A stretch of DNA of 27,861 nucleotides, taken from assembly GCA_030606215.1 (NCBI GenBank), contig JAUWGW010000023.1, positions 1 through 27,861 of the forward strand. Direction: 5' to 3'. Position numbers and translations under genes: made by a program. Below the pieces are notes generated by a model. The model did no database searches and was not told where the DNA came from. It saw nothing but the letters and a program-made list of their open reading frames with translations. Below, in pieces: positions 8,295-17,436 of the stretch. Position 1 is the first letter of the stretch. Every line of letters starts with the position of its first letter. Source of the stretch: a bacterium (GTDB lineage: Bacteria > NPL-UPA2 > JAUVJM01).

Positions 8295-8323
8295 TTTATA
8301 GCACATCCAGCGACTAATTTCAA
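8295..8323 (-). promoter_or_regulatory. smpB promoter, leaderless type
   Basis: On the minus strand TTGAAA (8318-8323), a 17-nt spacer and TATAAA (8295-8300) match sigma-70 at 5/6 and 5/6. The -10 ends 9 nt before the smpB ATG, leaving almost no leader and no SD. Five bases of the -35 lie in the left copy of the 64-bp direct repeat, so arrival of that repeat helped shape this promoter. Confidence 0.6.
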
Positions 8324-8382
8324 GTTTCTCAAAATCGGCCCTGTGATTCTGCTTGCCCAACTAAATGCAATGAAGATATAAT
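8319..8382 (+). repeat. 64-bp direct repeat, left copy, with sigma-70 promoter
   Basis: Identical over all 64 bases to 12751-12814. It ends in a perfect TATAAT (8377-8382), with TTGCCC 18 nt upstream (8353-8358). In the right copy this promoter points into the M28-AAC(3) gene; here it points into a scar made of fragments of that gene and then into the FG-GAP/LamG gene. Confidence 0.9.
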
Positions 8383-8446
8383 CAGCCTTCCAGAAAATGG
8401 AACATGGTGGATTAAAGGAAAGGATTGCTGAACGAGGGAAAGATTG
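8374..8446 (+). pseudogene. Mosaic scar of the M28-AAC(3) gene (collinear fragments)
   Basis: Directly after the left 64-bp repeat come three short stretches matching the gene at 12823-15537 in the same order. 8374-8391 equals 12984-13001 (18/18). 8386-8415 equals 13323-13349 apart from three extra A. 8417-8446 matches 15302-15331 at 27 of 30. The first two joins fall on shared words (agatataat, ccttcc), as expected for slippage deletions. I read this as a duplicate of the fusion gene reduced to about 75 bp. Its last piece supplies the TTG and 'LLNEGKI' that open the following reading frame. Confidence 0.7.
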
Positions 8447-9447
8447 ACGGAGACAACTTGAATGATGTGGTTTTCGCGAACCGGCAGCCTTACTATAGCA
8501 GTAACCTTTACTGGTATAAAAATCCCGCGGGAGCCGGCTCGTGGACAAGACATACAATTGACACCTTAAGCACTGAGCATCTTAAAGGTTCTCCTCCGGA
8601 AATAGCAGATATAGATTTGGATGGCAAACCTGATGTAATCTGCTACCGATACGACAGCTCAGCAACCTACTGGTATAAGAACCCTGGCGGCGGTTCAAGC
8701 TGGGCAAAAAACAAGATTTATGATGGCAACATAGGGGACCACAAGGGAGTAGGCGATGCAGACAATGATGGTGACCCGGATATAATTGTAGGTGGATACC
8801 TGTATGTAAATCCTAAGCATCTTGAAGCAGGTCTAAACGGATGCTGGTATCTTGATGAAGGAGAAAGAACAACAGCAGAAGATTCTTCCGGTTTCGATAA
8901 CGATGGAACCATCTACGGAGCTACCTGGACTACAGGCAAGGTTGGTTACGGTCTTGATTTTGACGGTGTGGATGACTACGTTGATTGCGGTAATGATGCG
9001 AGTTTGGATATTACTGATGCGATTACGATTGAAGCGTGGGTGAATTCAGACACGTTTACTCCCGACCTGGACTATCAAACTATTGCAGTAAAGAAAAATG
9101 CATATTATTTTCAAGTAAATAGTTCAGGGCGGCTAGTATATGGTGCGACAGCTTATGTGTCTTCTGAGTGGCCGATTCCCTCTCTCAATGAGTGGACACA
9201 TGTTGCTGTAACGGTTACTGGGACAACTGTTAAATTTTACATAAATGGAGATCTTGATTCCACAAAGAGTCAAGCATCGCCACAGACTTCTAATAATCAT
9301 TTAGGTATAGGAGCAAATTTGGATTCAAATGGGAATCCTGTCCTCAATTATGAAAGAAGGTTCGATGGCACGATCGATGAGGTCAGGATTTATGAGAGGG
9401 CTTTAACTCCAGATGAGGTTTATGAGCGCTATCTGGAAGGGTCGTAG
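8425..9447 (+). CDS. FG-GAP/VCBS + LamG-domain protein, 5'-truncated
   Basis: Open frame of 340 codons from TTG 8425. It contains acidic calcium-binding FG-GAP/VCBS-type repeats (DGDNLND, DIDLDGKPD, DADNDGDPD) over residues 1-125. A LamG/concanavalin-like jelly roll follows, about 135-330 ('GCWYLDEGE', 'DFDGVDDYVDCG', 'TIEAWVN', 'NEWTHVAVTVTG', 'FDGTIDEVRIYERAL'). Such proteins are normally exported surface or polysaccharide-binding proteins. Here there is no signal peptide, the propeller lacks its earlier blades, and the first eight codons come from the scar of the M28-AAC(3) gene. The native 5' end is therefore lost, and the gene is likely a remnant or an accidental fusion expressed from the repeat promoter. 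Stop codon is TAG. Confidence 0.7.
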   Translation: MLNEGKIDGDNLNDVVFANRQPYYSSNLYWYKNPAGAGSWTRHTIDTLSTEHLKGSPPEIADIDLDGKPDVICYRYDSSATYWYKNPGGGSSWAKNKIYDGNIGDHKGVGDADNDGDPDIIVGGYLYVNPKHLEAGLNGCWYLDEGERTTAEDSSGFDNDGTIYGATWTTGKVGYGLDFDGVDDYVDCGNDASLDITDAITIEAWVNSDTFTPDLDYQTIAVKKNAYYFQVNSSGRLVYGATAYVSSEWPIPSLNEWTHVAVTVTGTTVKFYINGDLDSTKSQASPQTSNNHLGIGANLDSNGNPVLNYERRFDGTIDEVRIYERALTPDEVYERYLEGS

Positions 9448-11211: not shown

Positions 11212-11273
11212 TTGACAGACATAAAAACCTAATGTATGCTTATTTCAGTAGGTGGACAAAAAGGTATACTGAA
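11212..11273 (+). promoter_or_regulatory. abiEi promoter and candidate operator
   Basis: A perfect -35 TTGACA (11212-11217), 17-nt spacer and TATGCT (11235-11240). This -10 covers the upstream in-frame ATG at 11236, so translation must begin later, at 11278. Inverted half-sites TTCAGTA (11244-11250) and TACTGAA (11267-11273), 16 nt apart, lie at and after the expected transcription start. AbiEi-type antitoxins are known to repress their own operon through inverted repeats. Confidence 0.6.
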
Positions 11274-11277
11274 TGAA

Positions 11278-11886
11278 ATGAACTTTAAAGACCTGTATAA
11301 AACCTTAGAAAAAAATAAATACTATGTCTTCTCGCACGGAGATATTTTATCATTTTATCCGGACGAAAAAAAACATAACCTTAAAAAGCTGATTTACAGG
11401 TGGAAAGAAAAAGGGTGGATTTATCCTTTAAAAAGAGGGTTGTATGAACTTACCTACCCCAAAGATTTTACCATTCCTGATATGTATATTGCCAATAAGC
11501 TCTATAGTCCTTCTTATGTGTCGTTAGAGACCGCTTTGTCCAATTACAGCATTATTCCAGAGGTATCAATGGCAGTAACCTCTATTACGACAAAACCCAC
11601 ACGAAGGTTTAAGAATAGACATGGCCTTTTTATCTATAGAACGGTTAAGTCAAATGCTTTTACCGGCTATTATGTGGAAAAACAGAGAGCCTTTAATATC
11701 CTTATTGCCGAACCGGAAAAGGCCCTGGTTGACTATTTATACTTTAAGACATATCGCAACAAGAGATTGAAACTTGAAGATGAAAGATTGGATAAGGATG
11801 TAGTCCTGCAGCTTAACAAGAGAAAATTAAACAGATATGCAAAATTGTATAATATCAATTTAAAGGAGTTTTATGCTTACCTATGA
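11278..11886 (+). CDS. abiEi: AbiEi-type antitoxin / transcriptional regulator
   Basis: 202 aa from ATG 11278; the 14 extra upstream codons fall inside the promoter. Type IV toxin-antitoxin antitoxin: an N-terminal winged helix (about residues 15-60, ending KGWIYPLKRGLYEL) and a C-terminal AbiEi domain with the typical YVSLETALSNYSIIPE segment (80-95) and 'EPEKALVDYLYF'. The family represses its own operon and counters the toxin without binding it. It overlaps abiEii by 14 nt, so the two are translationally coupled. Carried in the repeat-bracketed accessory block, consistent with horizontal acquisition. Confidence 0.87.
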   Translation: MNFKDLYKTLEKNKYYVFSHGDILSFYPDEKKHNLKKLIYRWKEKGWIYPLKRGLYELTYPKDFTIPDMYIANKLYSPSYVSLETALSNYSIIPEVSMAVTSITTKPTRRFKNRHGLFIYRTVKSNAFTGYYVEKQRAFNILIAEPEKALVDYLYFKTYRNKRLKLEDERLDKDVVLQLNKRKLNRYAKLYNINLKEFYAYL

Positions 11887-12706
11887 TTCTCTTATAGAAC
11901 AGGGGAAATCCAGACAGATGCCCCCCGCAAAAATTAGAGGTATTTTAAGAGAGTATCTTCAGATTCTTATTCTAAAGGAACTTTATAGAACTGAATCAGG
12001 AAAAAAGCTTTATTTTACCGGGGGAACCTATTTAAGATTGGCTCATAACCTCAAAAGATTTTCTGAAGACCTGGATTTCAACACAACTACTGTAACAAAG
12101 AAGAAATTTGAAGCTCTCCTGAAAAAGATAAAAAATGGGTTAGAAAAGGTCGGGATAGAGGTGCAGACAGAATTTGCTCATTGGTGTAATGTGTATGCTT
12201 CAAAACTAATCTTCCCCAAAGTAGAAAGAGCATACAATGTTATATCGAAGTATTCGAAAAAGAAGGGCATAATTATAAAGGTGGAGACCTATAGAGCAAA
12301 ATGGAAGATAAAAAATGAGACTCGCGTAATAACAGGTTTCGGTGAATTTTATCCCTGCATATGCACAGACAGAGGTATTTTATTTGCGGATAAGATAGAT
12401 GCGCTTACAAAAAAGAGCAGGGGAAGACATATCCATGATATTATCTTTATGCTTTCAAACAACTTCCCCATTGATAAAGGTTTCTTGTCTGTTCTTGGCA
12501 TAAAGAAAGATCCGCTGGAGGTTATACAGAACAGGATAAAAAGCTTTTCAAAAACCGAGTTAAAAAAACAGGCCGAAAACTTGAGACCTTTTCTTTTTGA
12601 TGAAAAGGAAGCAGATTTGGTTGTAAATGCTCATAATGTAATTCCGCCATTAGTAGAAAAATATGAATACAGTACGAACCAAGCCTCTTTGCGAGGGACT
12701 GGATGA
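11873..12706 (+). CDS. abiEii: AbiEii-type nucleotidyltransferase toxin
   Basis: 277 aa, with AAAGGAG just upstream of the ATG inside abiEi. This is a DNA polymerase beta-fold nucleotidyltransferase of the AbiEii/AbiGii family; related toxins modify tRNA ends or otherwise block growth and give abortive phage resistance. Catalytic features are intact: GGT at 50-52 with SEDLDF at 64-69 (D66, D68), the basic/acidic IKVE at 134-137, and the DKIDAL...RHIHD helix (172-188). The length is slightly short and the last ten residues (NQASLRGTG) look unlike the family, 44 bp before the right-hand 64-bp repeat, so the extreme C-terminus may have been altered by rearrangement. Predicted active. Confidence 0.87.
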   Translation: MLTYDSLIEQGKSRQMPPAKIRGILREYLQILILKELYRTESGKKLYFTGGTYLRLAHNLKRFSEDLDFNTTTVTKKKFEALLKKIKNGLEKVGIEVQTEFAHWCNVYASKLIFPKVERAYNVISKYSKKKGIIIKVETYRAKWKIKNETRVITGFGEFYPCICTDRGILFADKIDALTKKSRGRHIHDIIFMLSNNFPIDKGFLSVLGIKKDPLEVIQNRIKSFSKTELKKQAENLRPFLFDEKEADLVVNAHNVIPPLVEKYEYSTNQASLRGTG

Positions 12707-12750: not shown

Positions 12751-12814
12751 TTCAAGTTTCTCAAAATCGGCCCTGTGATTCTGCTTGCCCAACTAAATGC
12801 AATGAAGATATAAT
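12751..12814 (+). repeat. 64-bp direct repeat, right copy: promoter of the M28-AAC(3) gene
   Basis: Identical to 8319-8382. TTGCCC (12785-12790), 18-nt spacer and consensus TATAAT (12809-12814). The ATG at 12823 lies 8 nt after the -10 with no SD, so the mRNA should begin at or next to the start codon. Both copies could also be read as a short peptide ending NAMKI and TAA, which I take as chance. Confidence 0.85.
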
Positions 12815-12822
12815 AAACCGCA

Positions 12823-15537
12823 ATGCTTGATTATTACAGAAAGATTTCTGAAGAATTTGACCTGACCGGTTATAAAAGAATAAGTACACAGACAGCCAAC
12901 TATGAGAGCTCTTTTTGCTACAAGGGGTTCCGTAAATCCGCACATTTTTGTGCAAAGGAATTAAAACGGGCAGGTGCCAGTGTAGATATAATCAGCCTTC
13001 CGGCAGACGGTAAAACAACTTTCCTGGACCATACACTCCCCGAAGCATTTGATGTAAGAGAAGCACATCTCCAGCTAATAGAACCGGAAAAAAGGCTTCT
13101 GGCAGATTTAAAGGAAGAACCTTTTTGTGTAGCCAACCGATGTGGAAACACTCCAGAAGGAGGAGTTGCAGCAGAAGTGATAGAGGAGCGGGATATAGAT
13201 AAAGAAGATATTAGAGGTAAAATTGTATTTACAAAGGATTTTCACCCCAGGGATATAAGAGCTAAGGTAGTGGAAAAAGGTGGTATCGGGATTATTTCTT
13301 CTTATTCTGAGGATTCGTCTGACCTTCCAGATGGAACATGGTGGATTAATGGCTGGGGTTCCGGACCCGGGTGGTATCACCTTAAAGAGGATAAAAAGAT
13401 ATTTTGTTTTTCAATATCTCCAGGGAAAGGAGAGTACCTGAAAAGTTTATTTCGAAAGGGGAGAAAAGTAAAGGTACACGCAGAAGTCTTAAGCAGAATC
13501 TACCAGGATAAGATTCATACTGTTAGTGGCCTTTTGCCGGGTAGAGACCAGAAGGAGATAATATTCTTAGCTCATCTGTATGAACCAATGCTTACAGACA
13601 ATGCAACAGGTGCCGCATCTCTTATTGAGATATGTCGTATTCTGAATACACTTACCAAGAAAGGCAAAATCCCTCCATTAAGAATAGGAATCAGATTTCT
13701 CCTGTCAATGGAAAGATACGGGTTTGCTGAATTCTTTGCCAGAGAGGAGAACAGAAAGAAGGTATTATGCGCTATTAATGTAGACAGTATCTCCTCGGAT
13801 CCAAAAAAGACCATACAGCCTGTTAATGTGAGAATTAACCCGATGAGCCATCCATTCTTCGGCGATTTTATCATGGAAAATCTGACGCACAGATACCTCT
13901 CACCTGCATATCCCCGGAAGGTTGAAAAAGGAAATTTCAGCGACGATACCTGGATTTGTGATACTACAATTGGCATCCCTGTAAACTGGTTGTGGTCGCA
14001 TCCAGGCAAGTATCATCATAATTCACTTGATGGAGAGGCAGTTGATTTTAATCTTGCCAGAAATATAACTTCCATTATTGCCACATATGCATATCTCTTG
14101 AGCACTGAGGAGAAGGAAGCAGAGCATTTTATAAGAGAGACTCTTATTCATGAGGCAAAAAAGAAGACGCTTGAGTTCTACCGGAACCTATCTCTTCAGA
14201 AGCTGAATTCAAACGACGCTTTAGCTAAAAGAGACTTCTTTGCTGGATATATTCAAAATAGCATCTCTTCTCTTGCCAGGCTCAGAGACGAGCCCGACTA
14301 CCGGATTAAGGTGGATAGTTTGAGAAAGGTAGTTGAAGATGAAGGAAGGAAAGAGTGGAAAAGGATAAAAGAGAAATTTGGACCTTCAAGAGAAAAACAA
14401 CTTAGCCCAAAAGATAAGATGGCTAAAAATATGATACAAAGGAGAAAAGCAGTAGGAGTTCCATTCTGCTTGGCTGATGTTCCTCCTTCTGAGAAGCAGC
14501 CCAGACCGGAAAAACTGGACTTAGTTTTGAACTGGATGGATGGGAAAAGAGATTTGCTGCAGACATTCGAGCTGGTAGAGTTGGAGAAAGAGGTGACATT
14601 AAGTGAAAAAGAAAGAGCAAAACTAGTAAGATACTTACTACTCCTTTCAAAACATGGTTACATATCCATTAATTACAGTATTAAACTTACGAAAAATGAC
14701 ATAAAAGAGGGGTTGAAACAGCTTGGTATAAATAAGGGGGATAGAATCATAGTGCATTCTTCTCTAGCGAGTCTCGGATATGTAAAAGGTGGACCAAAGA
14801 CTGTATGCCAGGCAATTATGGAATTGGTGGCAGATAAAGGCATTGTCATGATGCCCAGTTTCAACCATGAAAAGGCATTTGAAGAGGCAGGCTACTATTC
14901 TCCGCTTGAAACACGGACAACCAACGGTGCAATTCCCGATGCTTTCTGGAGGTTGAAAAATGTATTCCGTTCGCTACATCCAACACACGCTGTGGCTGTC
15001 TGGGGTAAGAACGCAAGAAATTATGTGAAGGACCACCACAAAGTTCTTACTATGGGAGAAGGCTCTCCATTACATTTGCTGGAGAAAAATGGTGGTAAGG
15101 TGGTTTTGATAGATGCTCCCGGTGCGAATACCTTTCATCATATCGTGGAGATGACAAACAATGTTCCATGTCTTGGAAAAAGGACAGATGAATTTCCCGT
15201 TAAACTGCCTTCAGGCGAGATTGTCAAATGCAGGGCATGGAGCTACAGAAATAGCAACTGTCCATGTGATGATACAGATGCCTATCGTGATATTATGAGG
15301 CGGAAAGGACTGCTGAACGAGGGGAAAATTGGAATGGCGGATGTTATCGTATTTAAAATGTCCGATTGCAGAAAAGTTATTGAAAAACTTATTAAAGGTA
15401 AAGCAAAAGGATTCGCAGGCTGTAAGAAGTGTAAGGTTAAACCATGGGTAAAACCGAATACAGTAGAAAGCGATTGGGATGATGAGAAAAAGAAAGTCAA
15501 ACCTACATCCCCTGCATTCACAGGAGATTGGCTCTAA
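12823..15537 (+). CDS. Fusion of M28/DUF4910-type aminopeptidase-like and AAC(3)-type acetyltransferase domains
   Basis: 904 aa with no signal peptide, so probably cytoplasmic. Residues 1-430 are an M28/DUF4910-like zinc peptidase with an inserted PA-like domain (about 100-185). The metal set is conserved: H251, D259 in TDNATG, E297, D321 in NVDS, H399 in HHNSLD. Residues 430-615 are helical linker. Residues 624-860 are an aminoglycoside 3-N-acetyltransferase (antibiotic_NAT) fold: GDRIIVHSSLASLG, VKGG, 'MPSFNHE', RSLHPTHAV with H719, and TFHHIVE near 770-776. In this family the acetyl-CoA-dependent enzymes acylate amines, not only antibiotics. The tail has CxxC at 'GCKKCK'. The pairing suggests removal of an aminoacyl or amide group followed by N-acylation of the freed amine, or the reverse; the substrate is unknown. 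A partial decayed copy lies at 8374-8446. Confidence 0.83.
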   Translation: MLDYYRKISEEFDLTGYKRISTQTANYESSFCYKGFRKSAHFCAKELKRAGASVDIISLPADGKTTFLDHTLPEAFDVREAHLQLIEPEKRLLADLKEEPFCVANRCGNTPEGGVAAEVIEERDIDKEDIRGKIVFTKDFHPRDIRAKVVEKGGIGIISSYSEDSSDLPDGTWWINGWGSGPGWYHLKEDKKIFCFSISPGKGEYLKSLFRKGRKVKVHAEVLSRIYQDKIHTVSGLLPGRDQKEIIFLAHLYEPMLTDNATGAASLIEICRILNTLTKKGKIPPLRIGIRFLLSMERYGFAEFFAREENRKKVLCAINVDSISSDPKKTIQPVNVRINPMSHPFFGDFIMENLTHRYLSPAYPRKVEKGNFSDDTWICDTTIGIPVNWLWSHPGKYHHNSLDGEAVDFNLARNITSIIATYAYLLSTEEKEAEHFIRETLIHEAKKKTLEFYRNLSLQKLNSNDALAKRDFFAGYIQNSISSLARLRDEPDYRIKVDSLRKVVEDEGRKEWKRIKEKFGPSREKQLSPKDKMAKNMIQRRKAVGVPFCLADVPPSEKQPRPEKLDLVLNWMDGKRDLLQTFELVELEKEVTLSEKERAKLVRYLLLLSKHGYISINYSIKLTKNDIKEGLKQLGINKGDRIIVHSSLASLGYVKGGPKTVCQAIMELVADKGIVMMPSFNHEKAFEEAGYYSPLETRTTNGAIPDAFWRLKNVFRSLHPTHAVAVWGKNARNYVKDHHKVLTMGEGSPLHLLEKNGGKVVLIDAPGANTFHHIVEMTNNVPCLGKRTDEFPVKLPSGEIVKCRAWSYRNSNCPCDDTDAYRDIMRRKGLLNEGKIGMADVIVFKMSDCRKVIEKLIKGKAKGFAGCKKCKVKPWVKPNTVESDWDDEKKKVKPTSPAFTGDWL

Positions 15538-16920: not shown

Positions 16921-17436
16921 TTACCTTCCCTCCAAAATTACCTGAATTTTTCTATGGGCGTCCTGGCTTACATCTTCTGCATTTTTCTTGCCCAACATTA
17001 AAAGATCAAACTCCATTCCCAAAATGTCTATCATCTGCTTCCAATTCTTGTTTACGTCCATGTCTACAGATTCTTCCAAAATCTCATAAAAGATTCTAAT
17101 ATTCTCCGGCTTCCCTTTATGGTTTGCTATCATATCTTCAGCAGCTTTCTTCGAAGCTGGTAACCCACCTATTTGACCAGCTACTCTCTTCTGCACTTCA
17201 TAGCTTAGATAGAATTTTAGAAATGTGCAGGCCGCCTCGCGTTTCTCTGGAACGATATTCTTTGTAATTACCAGAGCATTAGGGTCATAATAACAGGCAC
17301 GTGAAACTTTTTTTGGAGGAAAGACAACATCATAGTCCAAATCAGGAAATTTTTCATTAATAACATGAACACTATAATATATCCTCTGCATCATGGCAAT
17401 CTTGCCCATACCAACGTCAATTCTATTGTATCTTTC
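16921..17436 (-). pseudogene. Truncated ABC-transporter solute-binding protein (C-terminal remnant)
   Basis: Open frame of about 171 codons with the C-terminal half of a family 1-type sugar-binding protein: 'GKIAMMQRIYYSV', 'DYDVVFPPKK', 'NALVITKN', 'EKREAACTFLKFYLSYEVQKR' in part, and 'GGLPASKKAA'. Full proteins are about 400-450 aa with a signal peptide; here the whole N-terminal lobe and export signal are gone. The frame opens 7 nt after the stop of the isomerase gene, so a deletion removed the 5' part and joined the remnant to that gene. No permease or ATPase genes are present. It cannot bind or deliver sugar; any product would be a nonfunctional cytoplasmic fragment. Confidence 0.75.

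Follow-up and report, generated by a model that had tools for sequence, protein, structure and literature searches.

An M28/DUF4910-type metal domain fused to an AAC(3)-like acetyltransferase: a candidate enzyme for N-acyl remodeling

Described systems related to the fusion

DUF4910-type 'peptidases' occur in many surface-sugar clusters, and the reaction they carry out has been a question since at least 2010-2014. Cj1295, a DUF2172/M28-type protein of C. jejuni, is required for the replacement of acetyl by di-O-methylglyceroyl at C5 of pseudaminic acid; its authors suggested that the C5 acetamido group is cleaved so that another acyl group can be put on (PMC3068675, PMC6321876). Cj1296/7, next to it in gene numbering, carries the annotation aminoglycoside N3'-acetyltransferase (PMC3025981). 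One recent paper considers Cj1296-Cj1310 uninvolved in flagellar glycosylation (PMC13317340). Structure 3K9T is that of CA_C2195, which combines DUF4910, DUF2172, and HTH_47, forms a trimer, binds one zinc, and was judged to be no conventional peptidase (PMC4000134). In the published comparison, Ser191 and Pro225 of 3K9T occupy the positions of the M28 catalytic Asp and general-base Glu, and the same paper points to clan members that have no enzymatic activity, such as the transferrin receptors (PMC4000134). Das and colleagues, the authors of 3K9T, suggested that DUF4910 proteins transacylate or deacylate amino sugars, and they reported aminosugar N-acetyltransferase neighbors as well as some gene fusions, the partners of which are unspecified in the main text.

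The protein described here is encoded at positions 12823-15537 on the forward strand of the window (the whole 27,861-nucleotide stretch of bacterial DNA that was analyzed; all coordinates below refer to it unless prefixed with another locus). It joins an M28/DUF4910-type module to an AAC(3)-like acetyltransferase. Judged by their published descriptions, Cj1295 and Cj1296/Cj1297 comprise the same two kinds of protein, and Cj1295 also lacks a signal peptide. However, the Campylobacter pair consists of two separate phase-variable genes rather than a single fused gene, Cj1295 has 435 amino acids compared with 620 for the M28 module of the fusion, and the known effect of Cj1295 is on pseudaminic acid, whereas no such glycan cluster lies near the window gene. 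The fusion resembles 3K9T in its predicted M28-like fold, PA-like insert, possible C-terminal winged helix, and replacement of the conventional catalytic Asp and Glu. In contrast, 3K9T retains three ligands, binds one zinc, and has no acetyltransferase, whereas the window protein retains five ligand positions and carries one. The M28 module shares its fold family and five metal-ligand positions with 2EK8, 1AMP, and YwaD, as well as the PA insert with 2EK8, but lacks their HxD Asp, general-base Glu, and signal peptide and adds a winged-helix-like tail and the acetyltransferase. The second half shares a full-length domain match, the TxPhiHPhiAE motif, and a C-terminal Cys pair with AAC(3)-IVa, FrbF, and YokD, but scores far below curated AAC(3) cut-offs and is attached to an M28-type module. 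In the literature searched, no paper named both Pfam domains together.

Our leading proposal, to which we give slightly less than an even chance, is that the fusion is a cytosolic bifunctional enzyme that remodels N-acyl groups on an amino sugar or similar amine.

Domain layout and active-site residues

The gene begins with ATG and runs as a single frame of 904 codons with no internal stops. Peptidase_M28 (PF04389) matches residues 237-422 (E = 1.6e-6; 28.5 bits against a Pfam cut-off of 21.3) and Antibiotic_NAT (PF02522) matches residues 643-856 (E = 1e-42; 146.6 bits against 25). With one frame and both domains above their cut-offs, the earlier note was right to call the protein a peptidase-acetyltransferase fusion. 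From the N-terminus, the M28/DUF4910-type metal domain with its PA-like insert is followed by a helical and winged-helix-like tail and then by Antibiotic_NAT, all on the forward strand. The insert (approximately residues 95-225, with approximate edges; 13105-13497) was placed by profile alignment to 2EK8 and by the domain order of 3K9T. The Peptidase_M28 core (13531-14088) is delimited by Pfam, structure-profile alignment, and multiple alignment. AlphaFold2 returned a pLDDT of 41 for the whole protein and 39 for the M28 module, the alignment being too shallow.

Residues 431-620 (14113-14682) had been described as a 190-residue helical linker. The segment is present, but it is not a linker specific to the fusion; rather, it is part of the M28-type protein and recurs in the separate genes of genomes G005, G045, and G160 and in free-standing relatives of other families. 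A DGKRDLL motif lies within approximately residues 566-616 of its winged-helix-like part. The resemblance of the tail to HTH_47 is weak, some relatives give weak HTH_47 and PqqD matches, and comparison of the winged-helix segment with solved structures gave zero significant matches.

The profile of the M28 half finds aminopeptidase 2EK8 as its best match among solved structures (E = 1e-11) and also matches the DUF4910 structure 3K9T (E = 3.4e-8). Against PF16254, the model for the CA_C2195-like group, the window protein reaches 12.9 bits, below the cut-off of 26.6, while the related half at locus L037 reaches 52 bits. The full set of M28-type metal ligands claimed from the sequence is retained, at five positions (H251, D259, E297, D321, and H399); 18 of the 19 sequences in the alignment, some with as little as approximately 22% identity, keep them too. 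The canonical catalytic positions, however, are replaced by Y253 (the HxD Asp) and M296 (the general-base Glu), an assignment that, together with the designation of E297 as a ligand, leans mainly on the 3K9T comparison because, when other M28 structures are aligned by HMM, E297 could in some cases fall at the general-base position. Neither canonical residue occurs in any of the seven fusions, in which the HxD Asp becomes Tyr or Asn and the general-base Glu becomes M, Q, S, L, or W; the general-base Glu is missing in 19/19 aligned M28-type sequences. Thus, at the sequence level the fusion shows the feature that characterizes CA_C2195, an M28-like domain with a PA-like insert and both catalytic residues lost. 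The absence of both residues makes hydrolysis by the usual M28 mechanism unlikely and, provided that the mapping is right, a peptidase-like step could not be the ordinary M28 reaction.

These replacements also suit an explanation in which catalysis is confined to the AAC(3)-like half, while the M28/DUF4910-type half binds metal as a pseudo-enzyme and serves to recognize, position, or oligomerize on the substrate. The precedent of 3K9T (a one-zinc trimer unconventional as a peptidase) and of the inactive transferrin receptors points the same way, as does a relative of the M28 module (L049) that has lost every one of the five metal-ligand positions. Nevertheless, retention of the five ligands in nearly every aligned sequence exceeds what would be expected of a mere binding module, and a specific glycan modification is lost with Cj1295. 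We regard the pseudo-enzyme explanation as possible but unlikely.

Judged by eye, signal peptides are absent from the fused forms but likely present in several free-standing M28 relatives. The difference would fit a move to the cytosol and to dependence on acetyl-CoA. Elsewhere, at locus L054 (1701-8513), a uroporphyrinogen-decarboxylase-like gene is followed by genes in tandem for three M28-winged-helix-like proteins that appear to be secreted.

In the acetyltransferase half, the Antibiotic_NAT domain (14749-15390) was located by Pfam, solved structures, and motif. Solved AAC(3)-type structures match inside residues 620-852 (best E = 8e-18). TxPhiHPhiAE, the catalytic motif of Antibiotic_NAT according to the published family paper, is intact as T770-H773-E776, with the His and Glu invariant across the alignment. 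The full-length match and the preserved H773/E776 dyad bear out the claim of a complete AAC(3)-type core. The CxxC tail is likewise present (C867 and C870; 15421-15432), but it is a normal part of this acetyltransferase subfamily, being common to the free-standing relatives L005, L006, and L016. These nearest acetyltransferase relatives are unannotated and have no resistance context. By analogy with the published zinc site in the C-terminal extension of AAC(3)-IVa, C867 and C870 likely form a structural zinc site.

Matches to Antibiotic_NAT and to AAC(3) models raise the idea that the protein serves in aminoglycoside resistance and that its other domain is accessory. However, all NCBIfam AAC(3) models fall far under their cut-offs (99 bits where the cut-off is 270; 89 where it is 420), and matches to known resistance genes reach only ~25-30%. 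In the acetyltransferase tree, the window protein groups with unannotated proteins of gut Clostridia and Ratteibacteria, and the window contains no mobile context and, as the earlier note had observed, no resistance context. A resistance function is therefore highly improbable. No second Antibiotic_NAT gene was found elsewhere in the source genome assembly.

Antibiotic_NAT takes part in another recurrent fusion, with an AP_endonuc_2 TIM barrel, at L053 (1033-2580; tested with Pfam), L009 (559-1995), and L055. A PF04199 cyclase adjoins this fusion in L053 and L009, and a DegT gene does so as well in L009. A haloarchaeal AAC(3)-family gene adjoins a sugar isomerase, with Gfo/Idh/MocA and PIG-L deacetylase genes near.

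Recurrence, context, and proposed function

The same fusion, with the same junction position, is found in six other genomes: CSMAG_1977 (L002), CSMAG_1143 (L003), a Ratteibacteria MAG (L004), G008 (L018), G359 (L050), and G276 (L051). The L004 and L018 fusions are interrupted by a contig end. In all fusions, one frame crosses the junction near residue 620. The two halves also exist apart. In G005 they are separate genes of 653 and 292 amino acids on different contigs. In G045, where adjacent separate genes were indeed found, a second M28-type gene precedes an AAC-type gene on the same strand across a 326-bp gap of repeat-like DNA with an insertion-like look (L037:1301-1628), which possibly splits a former fusion. 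Two near-identical N-termini of a further M28-type gene lie at G045 contig ends (L038:5750-6018 and L039:1-270), which indicates that this genome holds several M28-type copies. In plasmids and phages the halves occur only as separate proteins, and among the free-standing M28 relatives with inspected flanks none had an AAC neighbor.

The separate genes of G005 and G045 recall the refuting idea that the halves are normally apart and were joined in the window by a missed frameshift or another sequencing or assembly error. Separation was indeed observed, but a frameshift join was not borne out; because six other genomes carry a continuous one-frame fusion with its junction in the identical place, a joining error is very unlikely, to the point that we give it almost no weight.

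In trees built for each half, a single clade of the acetyltransferase halves of the fusions is rejected (AU test, p = 3e-8; p = 8e-6 with the split genes), while a single clade of the M28 halves of fused and split genes is not (p = 0.30); the L051 sequence, on a long branch, was excluded from the AU test. By these trees, polyphyletic acetyltransferase halves and M28 halves compatible with one clade indicate either two or more separate couplings of the M28 module to AAC(3)-like partners or the replacement of one partner.

No conserved sugar operon surrounds the fusion in the neighborhoods of the window or the relatives examined. The fusion is flanked by tig in L002-L004, by ruvB in L050, by glycine cleavage (gcv) and lipoate ligase (lplA) genes in L018, and by toxin-antitoxin-like genes in the window. 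In L002 its start codon immediately follows the tig stop codon, and in L003 it sits between tig and clpP-lon. Since the neighbors vary by lineage except in the tig-linked trio, they give no clue to the substrate. On contig C72 of G045, genes for a DegT aminotransferase, Gfo/Idh/MocA, and AP_endonuc_2 immediately precede one copy of the further M28-type N-terminus. Such an arrangement is typical of amino-sugar pathways.

The M28 family consists mostly of exopeptidases. This, the aminopeptidase 2EK8 as best solved match, and the position of the L003 fusion would suit an enzyme that uses its M28 half to cleave peptides, as an aminopeptidase or amidase, and its AAC half to N-acetylate the amino terminus so exposed. 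Such trimming and capping is improbable in our estimate: the canonical catalytic residues are missing, the Antibiotic_NAT members in the family paper work on small amines, aminoglycosides among them, and not on peptides, and the window, L018, L050, and L051 lack the tig neighborhood.

In the N-acyl-remodeling reading that we favor, an N-acylated amine, most probably an amino sugar or a metabolite derived from a sugar, would be bound by the M28/DUF4910-type domain, whose non-canonical metal chemistry would remove or transfer the acyl group. The freed amine of the same molecule would then be acylated from acyl-CoA by the AAC(3)-like domain through the H773/E776 dyad. Should acetyl-CoA be required, the apparent lack of signal peptides in the fused forms would be in keeping with a cytosolic role. 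The repeated natural fusion to an acyltransferase argues strongly that both halves act together. The two-step amine remodeling first suggested for this gene thus stands in part: the conserved fusion, intact dyad, recurrent coupling, and precedent of Cj1295 and DUF4910 support it, but ordinary M28 hydrolysis as its first step is unlikely. The idea is plausible and was in part anticipated in the literature, and the fusion would be a genuine variant of an already known pairing. We also consider, as a rather unlikely proposal, a single-chain amide exchange assembled at least twice, in which a metal domain without the usual M28 pair removes or transfers an N-acyl group by new chemistry and passes the amine to the fused CoA-dependent acyltransferase. 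The fusion offers one protein for a direct test of the proposed N-acyl swap. If true, remodeling of this kind would constitute a general bacterial route for varying the N-acyl groups of amino sugars, and an AAC(3)-type domain would have a role outside resistance.

Upstream region and second-copy remnant

An AbiEi/AbiEii-like toxin-antitoxin pair (11236-12706) lies directly upstream of the fusion gene. Between them, a possible promoter, TTGCCC-18-TATAAT (12785-12814, forward strand), ends 9 nt before the ATG. The spacing fits a possible leaderless start, but the 'strong leaderless promoter' previously claimed was not upheld: the region contains six promoter-like sites against 6.1 expected, a number not above chance.

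A 64-nt segment upstream of the gene (12751-12814) has an identical copy at 8319-8382. Sequence comparison extends this copy to 128 bp (8319-8446, forward strand), in which the upstream segment is followed by pieces of 12985-13001, 13323-13352, and 15302-15331. The three gene fragments lie on the same strand as the fusion gene, are colinear with it, and have short repeats such as GATATAAT and CCTTCC at their junctions. The longest exact match between remnant and gene is 19 nt, compared with at most 13 nt for approximately 1,800 random window segments. This pattern is that of a deletion remnant of a duplicate of the fusion gene, in agreement with the decayed second copy and duplication that had been proposed. 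After trimming of shared microhomology, the fragments differ from the gene by approximately three mismatches and one 3-nt insertion; with differences so few, the notion that the upstream repeat is better conserved than the coding fragments was dropped.

Two other genes in the window appear incomplete. A solute-binding protein gene at 16921-17409 has only its C-terminal part left (162 amino acids). At 8319-9447, the remnant runs in frame (GLLNEGKI) into an FG-GAP/LamG gene that adjoins smpB and is probably 5'-truncated.
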